Assembly (NCBI GenBank): GCA_002633115.1
Contig: NWBJ01000136.1
Span: 1 to 51,458, forward strand
Length of the DNA: 51,458 nt
Source of the DNA: Muribaculaceae bacterium Zag1
GTDB lineage: Bacteria; Bacteroidota; Bacteroidia; Bacteroidales; Muribaculaceae
Reading direction: 5' to 3'
This document shows, piece after piece, positions 6,991 through 48,529 of the stretch (position 1 is its first letter; every line of letters starts with the position of its first letter). A program made the translations under genes and the position numbers. The notes under the pieces were generated by a model. The model was not told where the DNA came from and made no database searches. It saw nothing but the letters and a program-made list of their open reading frames with translations.

Positions 6991-8574
6991 ATGGCACTGC
7001 TTTACCCCATAGGGATGCAAAATTTCCCCAACATCATCAACCGTGGCTACGCCTATGTTGATAAGACGGCTTTGATCTACCAGCTGACGCATACGTTTGC
7101 GGCTTGCTTTCTGAGCCGGCCGCGCCGCTTCGGCAAGAGCCTGCTCTTGTCGACAATGGAGGCATACTTTAAAGGTCAGCGTGAACTTTTCAAAGGACTG
7201 GCGATTGAGAAATTGGAGAAGGACTGGACTGTGCATCCAGTGATTCATATTGACCTTAATAATGGAGACTTTGGCACTGCTGAAAAACTCACCAATGCCC
7301 TTGAGAATCAAATTTCTGAACTGGAGCAAGAATATGGAATAGTTGAGCCTTATAATGCCATTGGTCAAAGATTTGGCAAAATTATCAAAGTGGCCTGTGA
7401 AACTACGGGGCAGCAGGTAGTCGTGCTTATTGACGAGTATGACAAGCCCACGCTTGAGATTATGACCGATGAAGAGGCGCAAAAGGAATACCGCCAAGTG
7501 CTGAAGCCATTCTATGGCACCCTTAAGGCGAGTGAGCAGTATCTGCGCTTTATATTTATCACTGGCGTAACAAAGTTTGCCAAGCTGAGCGTATTCAGCG
7601 ACCTCAATCAGCTAAAGGACATCTCCTTGCTGCCCGATTACGATACTCTATGCGGCATCACCACACAGGAGATGATGCAATATTTCGGCAGCGGAGTAGA
7701 AGCGTTTGCTCAAGCTAAGGGATGGACAGTAGAGGAGACCGTTGCAAAGTTGGAGCATAAATACGATGGATATCATTTTTCGTCTCGCAAGGTTGGGGTG
7801 CTGAATCCATTCAGCCTGCTCAATGCCTTATCCGATAAGGATTTGGAGGCTTATTGGTTTGCCACTGGCACTCCCACTTTCTTGGCTCGGCTTATGGAGA
7901 GGCATCATACCCCGGCTGATAGTCTGGTGGGATATAAGGCTACGACGGAGCTTTTGACGAGCGTTGAATCGGTGCGCACCAATCCCATTCCAGTGATATA
8001 TCAGAGCGGTTACCTCACAATAAAGGATTATGATGAGGTAACAAGGGAATATACCTTGGGATTCCCGAATGAGGAAGTAGAGCAAGGATTTCTCAACTTC
8101 CTGCTGCCATATTACGCTCATAAGCGAGAGATTAACAGCGGCCTAATGATTAAAGACTTTGTTAAGGATTTCCGCGATGGCAAGGCCGAGGATATGCTCA
8201 AGAGGGTGCAATCGCTGTTCGCTGATGTCAACTTTGAGTTGGTGCTTGACACTGAGGCGCATTACAAGAATGTGCTCTACATCGTGTTCAAGCTAATCGG
8301 ATTGCAGGTCGAGGTGGAGCGCCACACCAGCCAAGGCAGCATCGACATGGTGGTCAAGACTGACCGCTATGTCTACATCATCGAATTCAAATACAAGGGC
8401 ACAGCCAAAAAGGCCATCGATCAAATCATCAACCGTGGCTACGGCCTCCCTTACCAGTGCGACCCCCGCACCGTCCTCCTCATCGGCGCCAGCTTCTCCC
8501 CCCCGCACCCGCACCCTCTCCTCCCGCTGGATCATCCAACCACTGAAATAAAAAGCCACTATTTAATCTTTTAA
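6991..8574 (+). CDS. AAA-ATPase-like / PD-(D/E)XK nuclease protein (PF09820-type), frameshifted tail
   Basis: 527 residues. The N-terminal ATPase domain carries the family's unusual Walker A, SRPRRFGKS (42-50), preceded by YVDKT (22-26), and Walker B VVLIDEYD (144-151). A C-terminal PD-(D/E)XK-type nuclease motif reads SIDMVV then YIIEFKYKGTAKKAIDQI. Such proteins are abundant in gut Bacteroidales; their role is not established. After ASFS the protein runs into a C7 tract (8498-8504) and an odd Pro-rich tail; removing one C restores SPRTRTLSSRWIIQPLK, which aligns with the tail of the paralogue at 12016, ending at 8551. The reading given thus contains a 1-base frameshift. Its 3' end overlaps the convergent ATPase gene by 12 bases. 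Confidence 0.85.
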   Translation: MALLYPIGMQNFPNIINRGYAYVDKTALIYQLTHTFAACFLSRPRRFGKSLLLSTMEAYFKGQRELFKGLAIEKLEKDWTVHPVIHIDLNNGDFGTAEKLTNALENQISELEQEYGIVEPYNAIGQRFGKIIKVACETTGQQVVVLIDEYDKPTLEIMTDEEAQKEYRQVLKPFYGTLKASEQYLRFIFITGVTKFAKLSVFSDLNQLKDISLLPDYDTLCGITTQEMMQYFGSGVEAFAQAKGWTVEETVAKLEHKYDGYHFSSRKVGVLNPFSLLNALSDKDLEAYWFATGTPTFLARLMERHHTPADSLVGYKATTELLTSVESVRTNPIPVIYQSGYLTIKDYDEVTREYTLGFPNEEVEQGFLNFLLPYYAHKREINSGLMIKDFVKDFRDGKAEDMLKRVQSLFADVNFELVLDTEAHYKNVLYIVFKLIGLQVEVERHTSQGSIDMVVKTDRYVYIIEFKYKGTAKKAIDQIINRGYGLPYQCDPRTVLLIGASFSPPHPHPLLPLDHPTTEIKSHYLIF

Positions 8575-9858
8575 TGCCTGATGCAAGGCGTAAAGGGGAA
8601 AATTAGTCAACCAATCTTGTTCTCGGTAATTTGCCATAGAGAATCTCCAAGCTTTAGGCAATTTATATTTATCAGAGAATATCCTTAGGCTTTTGGATTG
8701 GAGATTTTCCTCGGCTTTGGCTTCAATTGGCACTACTTCTCCATCCTTCTGAATAAGAAAATCAATCTCGCCACTCGAGTTCTCAGCCGACCAATAGAAG
8801 ATGTTAGGACCATGCAACGCCCTAATTTGCTGCATGACATACTGCTCTGTCAAGGCTCCCTTAAAAGTAGCAAACAGATGATTGCCTTTTATCAGAGTTT
8901 TGGCTTCCAAGTCGCACATTGCCCCAAGCAGTCCCACATCGAGCATGAACACCTTGAAGGCCCCAGGATCTACCCAGGCATTAAGTGGCAATTCTCCAGC
9001 CTTAACTCTTGATACCTTATAGAAGAGCCCTGCATCGTAAAGCCATTCCAACGCCATTTCGAATTCGCGTGCTCTTGCGCCCTCTTTTATCACACCATAT
9101 AGGAATTTCTTATTTTCCTTGCTCAACTGAGATACTATTGAGTTCCATACCTGCCGAATACGAGGCACCAATTGCGCTGGTGCATGTTTGGAAAAATCGT
9201 TGTCATAAGAAGCAATTAAAGACAACTGCTCTTCCCTTGCTTTATCATATTCTCTTCCATTGAGGAATTGCTTTACCACCTTGGGCATACCCCCTACATA
9301 ATAATATTCCTTGAGTGCGTCTTCAAATTTACTGGTTGTATCTGCTATCAAATCCCAATCTTTTTGCGATAGGGCGTCGGCAAGGAGATCGTTTTGAGTA
9401 GCCCAAAGGAACTCCTCGAAATCCATCGGAAAAATATCCAAAAATCGCACCTTTCCCACGGGAAATGAATCACCTTGATGCATCGCGACCCCAAGCATCG
9501 AACCCGCCACCAACACAGGCATCCCAGGTTTTTGCTCAGCAAAATATTTCAGTGAAGTAATGCCGTGCTTCACTTCTTGCACCTCATCAAGTATGAGCAG
9601 GGTGTTATCGTCAATCTTTACCCCCTTGATTAGAGATAAATGCCGTAGAATTCGGTCAATGTTAAAATCAGAATCGAACAACGTCTGTAATTCTCGGTCA
9701 GACTCGAAATTCACATAAACATTGGGTACACCAAGGCTCGAAGCGAAATCCATCATAAGCCATGTTTTCCCCACCTGTCTTGCACCACGGAGAATCAGAG
9801 GACGCCTGTCCTCATCTTTATACCATTTCTTCAATTGTTCGGTAGCCTTTCTTTTCAT
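8563..9858 (-). CDS. DUF4143-family ATPase with intact C-terminal nuclease motif
   Basis: 431 residues. Walker A is GARQVGKT (25-32) and Walker B is LLILDEVQ (87-94), followed by VAGSMLG (a sensor-like strand). The C-terminal DUF4143 region ends in a PD-(D/E)XK-like motif, GEIDFLIQ then VVPIEAKAEE, with the acidic residues and lysine all present. Function of the family is unknown. The gene opposes the frameshifted ATPase gene tail-to-tail. Its promoter is overlaid by a three-copy 33-bp repeat (9913-10003), and an AAGGAG directly abuts the ATG, too close to be an ordinary ribosome site. Confidence 0.85.
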   Translation of the reverse strand: MKRKATEQLKKWYKDEDRRPLILRGARQVGKTWLMMDFASSLGVPNVYVNFESDRELQTLFDSDFNIDRILRHLSLIKGVKIDDNTLLILDEVQEVKHGITSLKYFAEQKPGMPVLVAGSMLGVAMHQGDSFPVGKVRFLDIFPMDFEEFLWATQNDLLADALSQKDWDLIADTTSKFEDALKEYYYVGGMPKVVKQFLNGREYDKAREEQLSLIASYDNDFSKHAPAQLVPRIRQVWNSIVSQLSKENKKFLYGVIKEGARAREFEMALEWLYDAGLFYKVSRVKAGELPLNAWVDPGAFKVFMLDVGLLGAMCDLEAKTLIKGNHLFATFKGALTEQYVMQQIRALHGPNIFYWSAENSSGEIDFLIQKDGEVVPIEAKAEENLQSKSLRIFSDKYKLPKAWRFSMANYREQDWLTNFPLYALHQALKD

Positions 9859-9886
9859 CTCCTTAGGTTTTATGGGTTTTACTGTG

Positions 9887-9918
9887 CAAAGTTAACAAAA
9901 AATCCATAAATTCACAAA
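9887..9918 (-). promoter_or_regulatory. Promoter of the first DUF4143 ATPase, -33 box inside a repeat
   Basis: On the minus strand, TAACTTTG at 9887-9894 and TTTG at 9915-9918, spacer 20. The -33 box falls within the first unit of the 33-bp tandem repeat, so a protein binding the repeat would compete with or contact RNA polymerase. Confidence 0.7.
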
Positions 9919-10003
9919 ACTCCGACTAAAAATGTGCATATCCTCCACAAAACTCCGACTAAAAATGTGCATATCATCCACAAAACTCCGACTAAAAATG
10001 TGT
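9913..10003. repeat. 33-bp tandem repeat, three copies, upstream of DUF4143 ATPase
   Basis: Units begin at 9913, 9946 and 9979; the first two differ at one base, the third is cut after about 24 bases. The shared core is cacaaaactccgactaaaaa followed by tgtg. It covers the -33 box of the ATPase promoter and extends upstream. No open reading frame. Possible operator array (inference). Confidence 0.85.
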
Positions 10004-10042
10004 AAACTACCTCATCCTATCAATGTAAGCAGCTTTTTATCA

Positions 10043-10090
10043 CAATACTTCGGTAAATTTTTTAATCGGTAAAAATTTACCGAAGTATTG
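10043..10090. repeat. Perfect 20-bp inverted repeat
   Basis: Arms 10043-10062 (caatacttcggtaaattttt) and 10071-10090 are exact complements around an 8-base loop. The T/A-rich part of the stem is next to the loop, unlike a normal terminator. It lies 64 bases beyond the parD stop and between the two DUF4143 loci. It may be an operator left behind by a lost gene, or a terminator of parD. Confidence 0.8.
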
Positions 10091-10153
10091 GTCATAGGGA
10101 TCATAATGAATAATTTACGACTTAGCATAAGATTGGAGGTCTGAGAGGTGGGC

Positions 10154-10357
10154 TTAGAAATCAAAGTCCTCCAAGAAACCGCTTTCTATGCCCTCATTGA
10201 TGGCTTTGCGCAAAGATTCCAGTTTGTTCTCTTCTCTTTCCAGTAAGTGTAATGCGTAGCGAATCATTTCACTAGGGTTGCTAAAGCGGCCTTCTTGTAT
10301 TTTCTGGTCTACATATCTGTCATAATAGGAGCCCAGGGTTATTGTTGTAGTTCTCAT
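10154..10357 (-). CDS. ParD-family antitoxin without a partner toxin
   Basis: 67 residues. TTTITLGSYYDRYVDQKI forms the ribbon of a ribbon-helix-helix DNA-binding domain, followed by GRFSNPSEMIRYALHLLE helices and an acidic C-terminal tail (ESGFLEDFDF) of the kind that wraps the toxin. ParD proteins repress their own operon and neutralise ParE. No ParE-like ORF follows: the 150 bases downstream hold only an inverted repeat and iterated sequence. It is therefore an orphan antitoxin, or a repressor. A palindrome at 10408-10428 is a candidate operator. Confidence 0.8.
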   Translation of the reverse strand: MRTTTITLGSYYDRYVDQKIQEGRFSNPSEMIRYALHLLEREENKLESLRKAINEGIESGFLEDFDF

Positions 10358-10407
10358 TGAAAATTTGTTTCGTCATGGGAAAACATTCCTTATTCTCCCA
10401 GAGTCAA

Positions 10408-10428
10408 TTGTTGCACTTAATGCAACAA
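10408..10428. promoter_or_regulatory. Palindrome upstream of parD
   Basis: TTGTTGCA-cttaa-TGCAACAA, perfect 8-base arms, 51 bases upstream of the ATG at 10357 and 38 bases beyond the stop of the second DUF4143 ATPase. No T-run follows in either direction, which favours an operator over a terminator. Confidence 0.5.
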
Positions 10429-10465
10429 CTGTTGGGGAGGGCCATCGGCCAAGGTAACGCACAGG

Positions 10466-11812
10466 TTATCGCAAACCAGACAGGTCTGGAGGAGCGAGGA
10501 AGGTCTTTGGCTCTTGTGGACGCATGAAAGCTACCATGTAGATGGGAGCATAAAGGATAGTGCCAGTATCTTTGAGATTATCATTATGCAAAACCACTGA
10601 ACGCTGAATCCCATACTCGGGGGTACTCAAGAGATTATTGAGGGCATTATGGCGAAGATAATCCTTGCCAGATTTCACCCCAATCGGCAATACCGCATTA
10701 TCCTGCTCTATAAGGAAATCCACCTCGCCTTGGTGTTTGCTATTGAAGTAATAGAGGGGGTAGCCCTGGGCCAAGAGTTCCTGCGCCACCACATTCTCAT
10801 AGATGCTGCCAAAATTCACTGAAGCGTCTCCCTCCAACACTTGCGGCATCACATTCTGAGAATATTGCGAGGCCAACAACCCCACGTCATTCTGAAATAG
10901 CTTAAAGAGATTGCGGGATTTGGCCAGCAGCAAAGGCAATTTAGGTTCTTCTACATTGTAAGTAGGGATAGCCGCCCCGGCGTTTTTCAGCCAAAGGAAA
11001 TCGTTGACCAATCGAGAGAATTTGGCCTTTTCGTTCAGATTCTTAAGGATAAACCTTTTGTTCTTGGCGTTCAACTCCGATGGAATGAGGTCCAGAATTT
11101 CATCCAAATACAGCTTGTTATCAGGATCATATTGCGCGATATCACGCTTATAGAGACGCAAGATGGCGCGTTGCTCTTGTCTCACCGCTTGCAAATCGTT
11201 GGTCTGAAGATATTTCTTCACAGCCGCCGGCATACCGCCTACCAAAAGATAGATGCGGAAAAGTCGCATTATTTGGGCATGTATGAAATCATCTACTGGC
11301 TTATGTTGGATCCAAGCATTCTCCAAAGCCTTGATCACTCCAACCCCTACACCTACGGCTTTGAAAAATTCATTCAGTGTCAAGGGATACACCTCTTTTA
11401 CATCAATATATCCTACGGGCTCAGAGCGTAAATCTTTGAGCTCTACTCCAAGGAGCGAACCGCTAAGAGCGTATCTGTATCGGCCATCATCAACGAGAAA
11501 TTTGGTGGCAGTCACTATGTCGGGGCATTTCTGCACTTCGTCAAAGAAGATCAGAGTCTCACCAGGCACAAGTTCTTTGTGAGTCAGAGCCGATACCCTC
11601 AGGAGCAAATCATCTAAGCCGTCAGCGTTTTTAAGCAAGTCGACGGCCTCAGGCCTATCTACGAAATTGATCTCCACAAAGCATTTATACCTCTTGCCTA
11701 TGCGTCGTATAGCATAAGTCTTGCCTGTCTGGCGTGCGCCAGTCAGCATCAAAGCCTTGGTATTGTTTTGGTAGAAATCATCTACGAAGGCATCTAATTC
11801 TCTTTCAATCAT
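10466..11812 (-). CDS. DUF4143-family ATPase with a damaged nuclease motif
   Basis: 448 residues from the ATG at 11812; an upstream ATG at 11836 would place the start inside a promoter repeat. Walker A is GARQTGKT (25-32), Walker B LIFFDEVQ (87-94), then ALSGSLLG. The C-terminal motif reads GEVDFLIE then VLPIGVKSGK, where the family normally has PIEVK. A single GAG to GGG change (codon at 10679-10681) would explain the loss, so nuclease function, if any, is probably gone while the ATPase remains intact. Only about 28 per cent alike by eye to its neighbour at 8563. Its promoter is overlaid by three 14-bp repeats at 33-bp spacing. Confidence 0.85.
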   Translation of the reverse strand: MIERELDAFVDDFYQNNTKALMLTGARQTGKTYAIRRIGKRYKCFVEINFVDRPEAVDLLKNADGLDDLLLRVSALTHKELVPGETLIFFDEVQKCPDIVTATKFLVDDGRYRYALSGSLLGVELKDLRSEPVGYIDVKEVYPLTLNEFFKAVGVGVGVIKALENAWIQHKPVDDFIHAQIMRLFRIYLLVGGMPAAVKKYLQTNDLQAVRQEQRAILRLYKRDIAQYDPDNKLYLDEILDLIPSELNAKNKRFILKNLNEKAKFSRLVNDFLWLKNAGAAIPTYNVEEPKLPLLLAKSRNLFKLFQNDVGLLASQYSQNVMPQVLEGDASVNFGSIYENVVAQELLAQGYPLYYFNSKHQGEVDFLIEQDNAVLPIGVKSGKDYLRHNALNNLLSTPEYGIQRSVVLHNDNLKDTGTILYAPIYMVAFMRPQEPKTFLAPPDLSGLR

Positions 11813-11831
11813 AGCGGTAGAGAGTAGAAAT

Positions 11832-11911
11832 GTCATTTTTCCAACGCAAAATTACCACTTTTTTGTCACTTTTCCAACATTATTTCCCCTTAATTGCGTC
11901 ACTTTTCCAAA
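11832..11911. repeat. Three 14-bp repeats at exact 33-bp spacing over the ATPase promoter
   Basis: gtcatttttccaac at 11832-11845, gtcacttttccaac at 11865-11878 and gtcacttttccaaa at 11898-11911. Starts are exactly 33 bases apart but the sequences between are unrelated. The middle copy contains the -33 box and the first sits just downstream of the -7 box. Likely operator sites on one face of the helix (inference). Confidence 0.8.
11847..11877 (-). promoter_or_regulatory. Promoter of the second DUF4143 ATPase
   Basis: On the minus strand, TAATTTTG at 11847-11854 and TTG at 11875-11877 with a 20-base spacer. The TTG belongs to the middle 14-bp repeat. Confidence 0.7.
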
Positions 11912-11959
11912 AATTAAGCAAAGAAGGTAATTTCAGGGTAAATTTTTTATGCCTGGAAA

Positions 11960-11990
11960 TTTGTGGGAAAGGGAAAAATGAGTAATTTTG
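11960..11990 (+). promoter_or_regulatory. Promoter of the second RPRRFGKS ATPase gene
   Basis: TTTG at 11960-11963, 19-base spacer, TAATTTTG at 11983-11990, 25 bases before the ATG at 12016. Confidence 0.7.
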
Positions 11991-12015
11991 CGTTATCATA
12001 AGAAAGCGTTGGATT

Positions 12016-13590
12016 ATGGATAAGCCGTTGAGATACCCGATTGATATACGCTCCTTCCCTACGATCAGGGAGGAGGGGTACGTCTATGTCGATAAGACAG
12101 GATATGTGTATCAATTGGCTAAAAACGGGGCTACATACAACTTCCTCAGCCGTCCTCGCCGATTCGGCAAGAGCATGCTGGTGAGCACTCTCCAGGCTTA
12201 TTTCGAGGGAAAGAAGGAACTATTTACTGGCTTAGCCATCGATGGCCTGGAAAAAGAATGGAAAGTGTATCCGGTGGTGAGCCTGAGCTTGGCATCTTTC
12301 AAGGGCGACCGTATACCGCTGCTGCAAGAATATCTGGAGCTGCAACTTGAAAAAGTTGAGGAGCGATACTCCCTGTCGACCACCAAGAAGGAGCTTGGAG
12401 CCAGATTCTCGCAGATAGTGGGCTTGCTGCATAAGAAATATTCTCAAAAGGTGGTGGTACTGATAGATGAGTATGACACCCCGATACTGAATGTCCTTCA
12501 CGACAAGCCAAAAAAGAAAGAGATACTTGCCTTTATGCAAAGCGTTTACGTCCCTCTGAAAGATCTGGAGGAGCAATTGCGATTTGTGCTTATTACGGGC
12601 ATCACCAAGTTTTCTCAAGTCAGCATCTTCAGCACTCTCAACAACATATCCAATATAAGCATGCGCTCGGAATACGCAGCTGTATGCGGTATCACCCTCG
12701 AGGAGATAAGACGTGAATTGAAGGCAAGCGTTGAGGCTTTGGCGGCGGAATATGGTTGTGATGAAGAGACCACGCTGCAAGAACTCCGCTCCTATTATGA
12801 CGGATATAAATTCAGATGGCCGTCGCCAGATATATTCAATTCCTATAGCCTGATCAATTGCTTTGACTGGAAGGAGATAAAGCCGTTTTGGTTCCAGACT
12901 GGCACCCCGACATTCGTAGTGGAGACATTGAAGAAGAGCAAGGTGCTACCATCGCAACTTGAGCGCATGGAGGCAACGGAGCAGGATTTCGATGCGCCGA
13001 TTGAGAACGTGGTAAAATTAGTGCCTTTGCTTTATCAGAGCGGATACCTTACCATCAAGGGTTACAACAAGGTGACCCATCGGTACACCTTGGAGATACC
13101 CAACAAGGAGGTGCATCTGGGGCTGATGAACTCGTTGGTGCCCAACTACATAAAAGAGCCCATGATGGCCCGCAACATCGTTGCCGATATGATACAATGC
13201 ATAGTCGATGGCGATGTCAACGCAGCGTTGGAGAAGATGAAGGTCTTTTTCAAAACCGTGCCTTATTGCCGTGGCACAAAGACTGAAGGCCATTGGCAAC
13301 AGATGCTCTATGTAATCTTCTCATTGTTTTTGGCCTATGCCGATGTGGAGGTGCATACCAATAATGGCCGCGTCGATATGGCCATGATTTACGATGGCAA
13401 GCTCTACCTATGGGAGGTCAAGCTCGATGGCTCTGCCAAAAAGGCAATCGACCAAATAGAGCTCAAAGAATACACTGACCGCTTCAGCCTCTGCCAGCTC
13501 CCCATCATTAAGATCGGCATCTCCTTCTCCACCAACACCCACACCATCAACGATTGGATAATCAATGCCAATTCCAAGCTCAGAAAATAG
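12016..13590 (+). CDS. AAA-ATPase-like / PD-(D/E)XK nuclease protein (PF09820-type)
   Basis: 524 residues, same architecture as the gene at 6991 and clearly a paralogue. YVDKT (24-28), Walker A SRPRRFGKS (45-53), Walker B VVLIDEYD (147-154), then a FLSRP-linked helical middle and the motif YQSGYLTIKGYN. The C-terminal nuclease motif is VDMAMIYDGKLYLWEVKLDG with the helix KKAIDQIELKEY, all key residues present. Its tail (ISFSTNTHTINDWI) is the intact counterpart of the frameshifted tail at 8551. Own promoter and terminator, so a single-gene unit. The biological role of the family is unknown. Confidence 0.88.
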   Translation: MDKPLRYPIDIRSFPTIREEGYVYVDKTGYVYQLAKNGATYNFLSRPRRFGKSMLVSTLQAYFEGKKELFTGLAIDGLEKEWKVYPVVSLSLASFKGDRIPLLQEYLELQLEKVEERYSLSTTKKELGARFSQIVGLLHKKYSQKVVVLIDEYDTPILNVLHDKPKKKEILAFMQSVYVPLKDLEEQLRFVLITGITKFSQVSIFSTLNNISNISMRSEYAAVCGITLEEIRRELKASVEALAAEYGCDEETTLQELRSYYDGYKFRWPSPDIFNSYSLINCFDWKEIKPFWFQTGTPTFVVETLKKSKVLPSQLERMEATEQDFDAPIENVVKLVPLLYQSGYLTIKGYNKVTHRYTLEIPNKEVHLGLMNSLVPNYIKEPMMARNIVADMIQCIVDGDVNAALEKMKVFFKTVPYCRGTKTEGHWQQMLYVIFSLFLAYADVEVHTNNGRVDMAMIYDGKLYLWEVKLDGSAKKAIDQIELKEYTDRFSLCQLPIIKIGISFSTNTHTINDWIINANSKLRK

Positions 13591-37555: not shown

Positions 37556-37783
37556 GAGTAGTTATGAGTTATGAGTTATGAGTTATGAGTTATTAAGTAT
37601 CGCCTATTTTATGGGTATGGGGACCGCCGAGGCGAAGCCTCGTGGCACTCGACTGCCTTACGGGTTTTATGCTTAAGCCCTCAGGTATCTTATGGCCTTA
37701 TCTTATGTCCTTATGTATCTTGTGTCCTTGCGGTTTTATGTCCTTACGGTTTTATGGTCTCACTATGCCGCCAGGCATGGTGC
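37556..37783. repeat. Low-complexity spacer between the solute-binding gene and porin gene
   Basis: No ORF. The left part is a 10-bp tandem repeat (gagttatgag, 37560-37592); the rest repeats words such as 'cttatgtcc' and 'cggttttatg' several times (37680-37760). It resembles the other short-period spacer repeats in this window. Confidence 0.65.
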
Positions 37784-45588: not shown

Positions 45589-46988
45589 AATAAGGATAAA
45601 GTATAAGGGATAAGGGATAAGGGATAAGTGATAAGTGATAAGTGATAACGTGGAAGGAGACAAGCGGGGACACGCGTCAGCCTACTTTTGACTTTTGACT
45701 TTTGACTTTTGACTTTTGACTTTTGACTTTTTACTTTTGACTTTTGACTCGGTACTTCCTCCCACAGGTACATGCGGTCGCTGGGGCGGATTTTGCCGGG
45801 CACCTTGATTGAGAAGGCTTCGCCCTTGACAGTCTTGTCGACTGGGTGGCAGTCGACCTGGATCTCCTCGATTTTGAGGAATACGGCTCCGGTGGTTGGC
45901 CCGGTGATGATTACCTCATCGCCAACCTTGAGTTCGCCAGCCTCCATCAGGAATTCGGCCACTCCGAGTTTTGAGTAGGTCTTGACGCCCTTGGCGATGT
46001 ATTTCTTGACACGCGTGGCCGATGAGCCGTACTTTGACGACCATTCGCCCAAGCGTTGGCCCAGGTAGTAGCCATCCCAGAATCCTCGGTTGAACACTTT
46101 GGAGAGCTGCTCCTCCCAGCCCTTGATCAGGTCGGGCGAATATGTGCCGTCGACTATCGCTTGCAACGCCTCGCTGTAGGCGCGCACTGTCGAGTAGACA
46201 TACTCGGGCCCGCGGGCGCGGCCCTCGATCTTGAACACTCTGACTCCGGCATCGACCATGCGGTCCAGGAAATGTATGGTTTTCAGATCCTTGGGCGACA
46301 TGATGTATTGGTTGTCAATCTCGAGCTGTTCGCCGGTTTCGTTGTCGGTGGCTGTGTAGCTGCGGCGGCAAATCTGGGTGCAAGCCCCACGGTTGGCGCT
46401 GCTGTTCATCTGGTGCAGGCTCATATAGCACTTGCCCGACACGGCCATGCACAGGGCCCCGTGGCAGAACATCTCGATGCGCACCAGTTCGCCATGGGGT
46501 CCGCGTATCTGTTCGCGCTCGATGGCTTGGCAGATGTCTTTTACTTGGTCCATATTCAGCTCGCGGGCGAGCACGGCCACATCGGCCCATTGCGCATAGA
46601 AACGCAGAGCTAGCAGATTGGTGATGTTGCACTGAGTGGAGATGTGCACCTCGATGCCTCGGGCGCGAGCGTGGGTTATGGCGGCAATGTCGCTGGCGAT
46701 AATGGCAGAGATGCCGCTTTGGGCCACCGCGTCAAGGATCTGGTCGGCGTATTCCAGGTCGGAATCGTATAGCACGGTGTTGAGGGTGAGATAGCTTTTC
46801 ACGCCAGCCTCGCGGCAAATCTCGGAGATTTGCCTCAAGTCATCGAGCGAGAAATTGGCACTCGACTTTGAGCGCATATTCAGGCCCTGTACGCCAAAGT
46901 ATATCGCATCGGCGCCGGCATCGATTGCGGCGTGGAGTGATTCATACGAGCCCACTGGGGCCATTATTTCAAAATCAGATCTCTGCAT
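45585..46988 (-). CDS. U32-family peptidase / tRNA hydroxylation-type protein (TrhP-like)
   Basis: 467 residues. MAPVGSYESLHAAIDAGADA at the N-terminus, then CHGALCMAVSGKCYMS and ANRGACTQICRR with four conserved cysteines, and RVFKIEGRARGPEYV match the U32 family. Members such as TrhP install hydroxyuridine in tRNA rather than cleaving proteins, so the exact role is uncertain. Homology ends near residue 409 (MYLWEEV). The last 55-60 codons are encoded by 7-bp and 10-bp tandem repeats and give KSQKSKVKSQKSKV and Ser-Leu-rich stretches, so the natural stop seems to have been lost. The ORF then reaches divIC. Confidence 0.85.
   Translation of the reverse strand: MQRSDFEIMAPVGSYESLHAAIDAGADAIYFGVQGLNMRSKSSANFSLDDLRQISEICREAGVKSYLTLNTVLYDSDLEYADQILDAVAQSGISAIIASDIAAITHARARGIEVHISTQCNITNLLALRFYAQWADVAVLARELNMDQVKDICQAIEREQIRGPHGELVRIEMFCHGALCMAVSGKCYMSLHQMNSSANRGACTQICRRSYTATDNETGEQLEIDNQYIMSPKDLKTIHFLDRMVDAGVRVFKIEGRARGPEYVYSTVRAYSEALQAIVDGTYSPDLIKGWEEQLSKVFNRGFWDGYYLGQRLGEWSSKYGSSATRVKKYIAKGVKTYSKLGVAEFLMEAGELKVGDEVIITGPTTGAVFLKIEEIQVDCHPVDKTVKGEAFSIKVPGKIRPSDRMYLWEEVPSQKSKVKSQKSKVKSQKSKVKSRLTRVPACLLPRYHLSLITYPLSLIPYTLSLL
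45594..45749. repeat. 10-bp and 7-bp tandem repeats inside the U32 gene tail
   Basis: Two arrays: 'gggataaggg' / 'gataagt' words at 45594-45650 and about nine copies of 7-bp cttttga at 45683-45749. They encode the low-complexity C-terminus of the peptidase on the minus strand. Confidence 0.85.
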
Positions 46989-47094: not shown

Positions 47095-47180
47095 CTGTCT
47101 GTAGGGGATAATGAAGAATGAAAAATGAAGAATTAATAATGAAGAATATTTTTCATTTTTCATTATTCATTTTTCATTAT

Positions 47181-47558
47181 TTATTCTTTGCCATTGCTGG
47201 GGGGAAGCACGGGAGCCTCGCCAGTGGGCACGGTCACCTCGCCGGGGGTGGGGAGGGTGTTGGTGTCATATTGATTTGCGCCGGGCAGGGGAGCGGTCTG
47301 CTCTTGCTGGGTGCGCAGCTGCTCATTGTTGCCGTTGGGCACAGTGTAGGCCGAAGCGATTGAGAGCACAACCAGGAGGCCAGCGAGCCACCATGTGCCC
47401 TTCTCAAGGAATGAATTGGTCTGGCGCACGCCCATCATAGCCGAAGCGTTGCCGAATTGAGATGAAAGGCCACCGCCTTTAGATTTTTGGATCAGCACGA
47501 TGCCGATCAAGAGCACCGCGATAATTACAGAAACGATAATGATAAAAAGATAAAGCAT
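47181..47558 (-). CDS. secG: Preprotein translocase subunit SecG
   Basis: 125 residues. Two membrane helices (LFIIIVSVIIAVLLIGIVLI at 4-23 and WLAGLLVVLSIASAY) flank the hallmark loop QKSKGGGLSSQFG. This matches SecG, the accessory subunit of SecYEG. The C-terminal 45 residues are a Pro/Gln-rich tail (PLPGANQYDTN). It lies in the order sigma-54 activator, lptE, TPR protein, secG, which is known from Bacteroides. Confidence 0.93.
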   Translation of the reverse strand: MLYLFIIIVSVIIAVLLIGIVLIQKSKGGGLSSQFGNASAMMGVRQTNSFLEKGTWWLAGLLVVLSIASAYTVPNGNNEQLRTQQEQTAPLPGANQYDTNTLPTPGEVTVPTGEAPVLPPSNGKE

Positions 47559-48451: not shown

Positions 48452-48478
48452 GGTTTCTATCTTGAGGCCCTTTAACTT

Positions 48479-48529
48479 CTGACTTTTACCTTCTGACTTT
48501 TGACTTCTGACTTTTGACTTTTGACTTTC
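48479..48529. repeat. 7-bp cttttga-type repeat between the TPR gene and lptE
   Basis: Words 'gacttttgac' and 'gacttctgac' repeat six times. It is the same motif as in the tail of the U32 gene, here between stop and start without coding effect. Confidence 0.7.

Follow-up and report, generated by a model that had tools for sequence, protein, structure and literature searches.

Two neighbouring genes in a 51,458-nt stretch of the Muribaculaceae bacterium Zag1 genome (assembly GCA_002633115.1, contig NWBJ01000136.1, positions 1 to 51,458; hereafter the window) encode ATPases of the AAA_14-DUF4143 type, P0001 and P0002, and each is preceded by repeats that recur every 33 bp across its promoter. 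Such phased arrays were confirmed as a real and general feature of DUF4143 genes: a clear upstream repeat was found in 160 of 243 genes, with a period of 32-34 bp or its double in 135 of these 160. From the sequence comparisons set out below we infer, with a probability of roughly 0.7, that each ATPase of the main DUF4143 clade binds the array at its own promoter as an oligomer and represses its own gene.

Both genes lie on the minus strand. P0001 (8563..9858, 431 amino acids (aa)) matches the Pfam families AAA_14 (3.2e-26) and DUF4143 (3.5e-35), as does P0002 (10466..11812; 2.6e-24 and 1.3e-28, respectively). The two proteins also match the PADLOC models PDLC04786 (P0001, 1e-169) and PDLC04792 (P0002, 1.7e-183), both of the candidate defence system PDC-S01, and the other array-bearing members that were tested likewise match PDC-S01/AAA_14 plus DUF4143, two of them below the DUF4143 cut-off. 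The searches made returned no orthologue of P0001 above 56% identity. The P0002 reading frame is open to 11836. Because the ATG at that position falls within a unit of the array (the third unit of array 2, 11831..11845), and because a start at 11812 fits the relatives better, we retained 11812, the start given in an earlier reading of the window made from the sequence alone (the sequence-only reading).

The promoter of P0001 has a -7 box, TAACTTTG, of the TAnnTTTG type at 9887..9894 (minus strand, as are all units and boxes below). The gene-proximal unit of array 1, a 24-bp quasi-palindrome (CACATTTTTAGTCGGAGTTTTGTG) at 9913..9936, contains the -33 TTTG (9915-9918) and is followed by a middle unit at 9946..9969 and a distal unit at 9979..10002, so that unit starts at 9913, 9946 and 9979 are separated by steps of 33 and 33. 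The second and third units are 97% and 82% identical to the first, the third being kept over its first 24 bp, and TRF describes the array as 2.7 copies with 98% matches. In array 2, one unit (11831..11845) lies downstream of the P0002 -7 box, TAATTTTG, also of the TAnnTTTG type (11847..11854), the middle unit (11864..11878) covers the -33 TTG (11875-11877), and the distal unit (11897..11911) is about where close conservation with a 97% orthologue starts. These are 15-nt cores at 11831, 11864 and 11897, again in steps of 33 and 33. The cores are identical at 12-13 of 14 positions and the 19-nt spacers at 1-7 of 19; array 2 thus keeps its core and spacing, and its spacer is not kept. The sequence-only reading had placed both arrays in this way, had put one unit of each on the -33 element of its own gene and had noted that array 2 keeps only its cores, and all of this held at these positions. 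A 20-nt piece of array 1 had no exact match among viral contigs. Just upstream of array 1, at 10043-10090, the arms of an inverted repeat (CAATACTTCGGTAAATTTTT) pair perfectly over 20 nt around an 8-nt loop, a candidate terminator or operator.

The sequence-only reading had suggested looking for a 33-bp autocorrelation peak upstream of other DUF4143 genes. We scored the best ungapped self-match at lags of 12-90 in the 260 bp upstream of each gene (match +1, mismatch -2), called a score of at least 11 a clear repeat and assigned lags of 32-34, or double (64-68), to the period class. Start codons were set by position relative to the P-loop or profile, independently of the repeats. The 243 genes came from the genome itself, from other genomes of the genus, from the order (a single genome for each family), and from P0001-like genes of eight phyla. 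The genome itself has 29 DUF4143 matches. Leaving out two without a P-loop gave 27 usable starts, of which 24 scored at least 11 and 19 of these had a lag of 32-34 or 64-68; a clean count that also omits C115, a 154-aa fragment (lag 32, score 62), gave 26, 23 and 18. Corresponding numbers for genes, clear repeats and repeats in the period class were 34, 32 and 32 in the genus, 105, 57 and 38 in the order, and 78, 48 and 47 for P0001-like genes. The order set comprised 110 loci, 105 of them used, 30 having come from a search (one from the genome itself) and 80 having been chosen down its results, non-randomly; its stretches often end with the domain, and its proteins are therefore cut. The P0001-like set was the best 80 of at least 585 matches, with 78 used, and its phyla were taken from the titles of records that are mostly metagenome bins.

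Enrichment was very strong. The period was present in 135/243 upstream regions compared to 4 of 228 adjacent upstream stretches (19 scoring at least 11), 0 of 243 stretches inside the gene (5 scoring at least 11) and 6 of 160 stretches downstream of the stop (23 scoring at least 11), control matches at the period being counted as they stand, including any that belong to the arrays of neighbouring genes. Regardless of score, the best lag was 32-34 in 144 of 243 genes. At scores of at least 10 the lag histogram peaked at 32 (73 genes) and 33 (76), with further peaks at 64 (30), 66 (45), 23 (15) and 46 (10), and every remaining lag had at most 9 genes. None of 280 dinucleotide shuffles of the own-genome and genus upstreams fell at 32-34 or 64-68 (14 scored at least 11), and among 297 other upstreams of the genome only 3 did so, 73 having some repeat.

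The period follows the protein clade, since one DUF4143 clade uses 23 bp instead of 33. In a FastTree tree of 165 DUF4143 proteins, with long branches flagged, a period of 32-34 or double was found in 60 of the 68 rows of the main clade, and a 23-bp period in 11 of the 13 rows of another (support 100), whose own-genome members are C79 (best PADLOC model PDLC04790), C12 and C116:69404. Changes of label along the tree numbered 27 for period 33 (55.0 when shuffled) and 5 for period 23 (12.7 when shuffled). The period also crosses phyla: it accounted for 21/21 repeats among 44 P0001-like genes of Bacillota and 20/21 among 26 of Bacteroidota, and was found in one member each from Chlorobiota, Chloroflexota, Cyanobacteriota, Verrucomicrobiota, Lentisphaerota and Actinomycetota, four of these six scoring only 11-13. 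A plasmid gene of the cultured strain Segatella copri DSM 18205 has a 33-bp array as well. The shared 33-bp geometry proposed from the two window genes therefore extends through the main clade and across phyla, but one clade has 23 bp and 83 of the 243 genes have no clear array.

Other ATPase families largely lack the pattern. PF09820/PF08011 proteins (AAA-ATPase_like plus PDDEXK_9; two in the window, 6991-8574 and 12016-13590) have a similar domain plan and a high copy number, with 55 PF09820 matches in this 4.46-Mb genome, but differ from DUF4143 in that the period occurred in 2 of 30 upstreams tested. One of the two (L108) lies beside P0002 in divergent orientation, and its upstream region reaches into array 2; the other (L123) carries two units of the type found at the DUF4143 gene C116:81039, about 7 kb away. 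P0002 and the PF09820 gene that starts at 12016 have divergent promoters that are inverted copies of one another over 21 nt (11843-11863 and 11974-11994, 86%), -7 boxes included. For genes of the sister family DUF234/ATPase_2 in the order, 28 loci gave 23 usable ones, two of which were DUF4143 genes (L340 and L344, lags 33 and 32) and were set aside; at a score of at least 11, which 7 of the remaining 21 reached, the 33-bp period was found in 0 of the 21. Three DUF234/ATPase_2 genes (L339, L343, L351), a number too small for a judgement, have upstream repeats 52-53 bp apart, about five helical turns.

We examined where the arrays lie relative to the promoter. TAnnTTTG was found in 63 of 64 DUF4143 upstreams from the genome and genus (own duplicates included) compared to 84 of 193 control intergenic upstreams. 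Across the genome, genus and order, 93 of 101 genes with a period of 33 or 23 had the box and 8 were without it. The array, of 2-7 and mostly 2-3 units, overlapped the core promoter in 77 of the 101, whereas 14 arrays lay upstream only and 2 lay downstream of the box; where there were several boxes the one nearest the array was used, which favours overlap. Placement over the TAnnTTTG/-33 region, predicted from the two window genes, is thus the usual arrangement, and promoter overlap argues for repression. Units that span the -7 box to the start codon in some genes would suit repeats that function as RNA in a 5' leader, but most of the 93 genes with a box have at least some units upstream of it and no Rfam family reached its gathering score in 9800-12050, making an RNA role very improbable.

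Cores were better conserved than spacers. The C76 gene and its orthologue from a second genome have the same cores (0 of 45 positions changed) but diverged spacers (14 of 51 changed; Fisher p 6e-5), the two arrays having three and four units. P0002 and its 97% orthologue differ at 10 of 134 columns from the first unit onward, and before the first unit are barely alignable (79 of 180 identical). Arrays therefore persist in both aligned pairs of orthologues, where their loss would have told against the sequence-only reading. These comparisons bear on whether the repeats are functionless tandem duplications in a genome rich in intergenic repeats. Such an origin would fit the repeats found in 73 of the 297 control upstreams and the near identity of the array 1 units across 33 bp, but control repeats are scattered over other periods, 14 foremost, and in the arrays spacers drift while cores stay and the same period recurs across phyla. 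As a general account, tandem duplication is refuted by the period enrichment, the cross-phylum period and the conservation of core over spacer, and we give it almost no weight.

Unit sequences vary from gene to gene in the genome (as judged by eye) and stay with orthologues. The sole genome sites within 3 mismatches of the array 1 unit were its own three units, sites for the C76 unit (2 mismatches) were only those of its own array (three copies and an adjoining inverted one), and sites for the C136:52504 unit (1 mismatch) were confined to its own array. Own-genome stretches totalling 592 kb were searched for 23 unit cores with one mismatch allowed: 19 were confined to their own array and four had 1-3 further sites. 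One piece per array was used, the piece for C116:81039 differing from that of the genome-wide search. The proposal that each ATPase has a private operator array is supported by the enrichment and by persistence in orthologues. Strict privacy of units as a general rule was rejected: 3 of the 5 units searched genome-wide were confined to their own array, and privacy failed for 1 of the 5. At equal protein identity, unit similarity was alike in same-genome and different-genome pairs (84 vs 819), giving no clear signal of orthogonality.

Different units nonetheless have a half-site in common. Array 1 holds CACATTT, and array 2 holds AAAAGTG in two of its three units and AAAAATG in the third; CACATTT and AAAAGTG are the two strands of AAA-N-GTG. 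Since this half-site is shared, calling the two window repeats unrelated, as the sequence-only reading did, was too strong, although the unit sequences do differ. AAA(N)GTG occurred on either strand in 25 of 59 main-clade unit consensuses (shuffled mean 0.6, maximum 4), array 1 being among the 25 and array 2 outside them since masking of the variable base removes the motif from its consensus. Of the 42 units in which sufficient positions are conserved, 9 were significantly palindromic (shuffle p <0.05), a count that rules out a dimer bound to a palindrome as a general rule.

Unit and protein change together. Among 43 full-length proteins, the proportion of pairs that share a unit (score at least 9) was 1-2% at 25-35% identity, 18% at 50-60% and 59% at 60-80%. 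With overall identity removed, unit similarity correlated with similarity in residues 301-385 of P0001 (partial correlation 0.27, a value reached in 0 of 2000 permutations, in a test that removes shared descent incompletely) and, less strongly, in residues 156-219 (0.20, reached in 4 of 2000); the correlation for the P-loop half was negative. From this co-variation, each array is most likely bound by the ATPase that it precedes, and the probable reader of the unit is the C-terminal half of DUF4143.

A partner gene had been put forward as an alternative to the ATPase. P0001-like genes have no conserved neighbour: in flanks of up to 1.5 kb the commonest neighbour family occurred in 4 of 78 loci. 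This does not support a linked partner, and it agrees, for the P0001-like set tested, with the single-gene pattern of PDC-S01. Arrays could instead be operators of separate, unlinked host regulators, with some protein other than the ATPase as the binder. ATPase binding is itself deduced, one unit type also precedes a PF09820 gene, and small dedicated repressors can read such arrays, as RptR does with three direct repeats at a defence-island promoter (PMC12255303). However, the period is kept by the ATPase clade across phyla even though unit sequences differ, units co-vary with ATPase sequence and no neighbour within 1.5 kb is conserved. We therefore regard separate regulators as unlikely, though the least improbable of the alternatives, and favour binding by the ATPase.

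The region that co-varies most strongly with the units also contains candidate nuclease residues. PD-(D/E)XK nucleases have the catalytic motif D...(D/E)xK. Residues D366, E379 and K381 (P0001 numbering), which lie within 301-385, are invariant or nearly so in 67 aligned sequences and are read here as this motif. P0002 reads PIGVK at this point, with Gly in place of the nearly invariant Glu (E379 of P0001); because of this replacement the P0002 copy may bind DNA without cutting. Retention of the PD-(D/E)XK-type residues in nearly all 67 members would also suit a mobile or homing unit, with the array as its recognition end and the ATPase-nuclease acting on it in cis so that the gene is moved or retained, as would the start of close P0002 orthologue conservation at the first unit and the occurrence of relatives on plasmids and phage-labelled contigs. 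Against this, the period is an upstream feature (135/243, compared to 6/160 downstream), the array is mostly on the promoter and P0002 lacks the Glu, so that we consider a mobile unit improbable.

We infer repression, the oligomer and its trigger as follows. Most main-clade PDC-S01 genes would have their own autoregulatory operator array, usually of 2-4 units of about 13-24 bp, lying over or near the promoter at intervals of three helical turns (32-34 bp; one clade has 23 bp, about two turns). The ATPase would occupy its own array as a head-to-tail oligomer along one face of the DNA. The oligomer would set the period, the bound ATPase would keep its own gene off or low, and both protein and promoter would be released once the ATPase changes state, for instance through ATP turnover or a phage signal. 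Sites would lie roughly on one DNA face because units are about three turns apart, and 23, 46 and 66 are also near whole numbers of turns.

Several observations weigh against self-binding and autorepression. The 83 genes with no clear array comprise 3 from the genome, 2 from the genus, 48 from the order and 30 P0001-like genes, 23 of these 30 from Bacillota, and arrays are patchy elsewhere on the tree, as in a clade of 41 rows of which 16 have one. A period of 23 bp does not equal a whole number of turns. In 14 of 101 genes the array lies wholly upstream of the -33 region, a position that fits activation or looping equally well. Residues 220-300, where weak helix-turn-helix matches lie (below cut-offs, at about 205-240 of a 376-aa member), do not co-vary with the units (partial -0.009). 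Outside the AAA core the ATPase has no clear relative in the PDB, the single weak match being that of residues 332-397 to the UPF0102 protein 3fov (E 0.26). The P0002 core has 18 genome sites within one mismatch (4 exact) compared to 4 for a control pattern; three are its own units, one is a lone exact site elsewhere and 14 have one mismatch. Finally, the C116:81039 unit is found three times in its own array and at five other places on that contig: a pair of sites 32 bp apart precedes the DUF4143 gene C116:68321, which itself has another kind of array, a second pair with the same spacing precedes a PF09820 gene, and the fifth site stands alone.

Contig C116 as a whole has, at about 67.4-80.5 kb (loci L010 and L001), three DUF4143 genes with cross-placed units, and a unit of the C116:69404 type (the 23-bp type) lies upstream of C116:81039. 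This cluster is a possible small regulon. Such cross-placement fits a regulator and departs from strict privacy, and some of the ATPases there may act on neighbouring promoters.

CRISPR arrays combine repeats some 23-37 nt long with unique spacers and with cas genes nearby; the DUF4143 arrays, with their few units on a promoter and no conserved linked gene, do not belong to this class. PDC-S01, whose models P0001 and P0002 match and which the P0001-like genes resemble in having no conserved partner, is described as an ATPase fused to PD-(D/E)XK and is reported as the fourth most common (candidate) defence across prokaryotes (PMC12988326). The same report states that validation is pending for most PDCs, and the anti-phage role of PDC-S01 is that of a candidate (PMC12988326), a further point against the proposed reading. 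Published accounts, in the portions available, cover only prevalence and fold (PMC12988326, PMC13356809) and say nothing of promoter arrays. Our literature search found no mechanism for PDC-S01 and nothing on phased repeats or autoregulation in the DUF4143 family, subscription papers and preprints being outside its scope.

Two known autorepressors offer comparisons. RptR of enteropathogenic E. coli is a defence-island autorepressor with three direct repeats over its promoter (PMC12255303). Repeats over the gene's own promoter are the likeness, but RptR is a separate 79-aa repressor that uses one 6-bp palindrome type (PMC12255303), whereas for DUF4143 no separate regulator was found, most genes have a different unit and the phasing is 33 bp. 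A small linked repressor of the RptR type was set aside given that none of the neighbours is conserved in the 78 P0001-like loci. If PDC-S01 is a defence system, it would make sense for the effector to repress itself until an attack sets it free, as has been proposed for RptR (PMC12255303). The homing endonuclease I-TevI is an autorepressor whose operator covers its own promoter and is scarcely cleaved when bound (PMC2988022), so a nuclease can be its own repressor. It differs in having a single operator, a GIY-YIG fold and a phage intron as its setting, and in being neither an ATPase nor the reader of a phased array (PMC2988022).

Other features of the window were noted in passing. A gene for a 67-aa ParD-type antitoxin (PF03693, 2.3e-20; 10154-10357, minus) sits between P0001 and P0002 and is preceded by an inverted repeat (10405-10431); no ParE partner turned up, no search having been aimed at ParE. 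Heptad tandem repeats are numerous, for example ACTTTTG x 9.4, and occur at 37560-37593, 45590-45648, 45684-45749, 47110-47185 and 48471-48528.

A broader picture can be offered tentatively, and we hold it with much less confidence than autorepression itself. DUF4143 proteins may form a large set of self-reading regulators in which a diversified PD-(D/E)XK-type domain has been turned into a sequence reader, with some two dozen specificities in a single genome, each matched to its array and a few acting on nearby promoters too, as in the C116 cluster. The ATPase oligomer might fix the spacing, and the array might serve as bait, such that an attack which strips the array of its ATPase, or damages it, switches defence on. 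The arrays supply each gene with a defined DNA target, with an assay (own versus foreign array) and with a domain that is the candidate reader, and the many diverged pairs of protein and operator would be useful for learning how such a fold gains sequence specificity.

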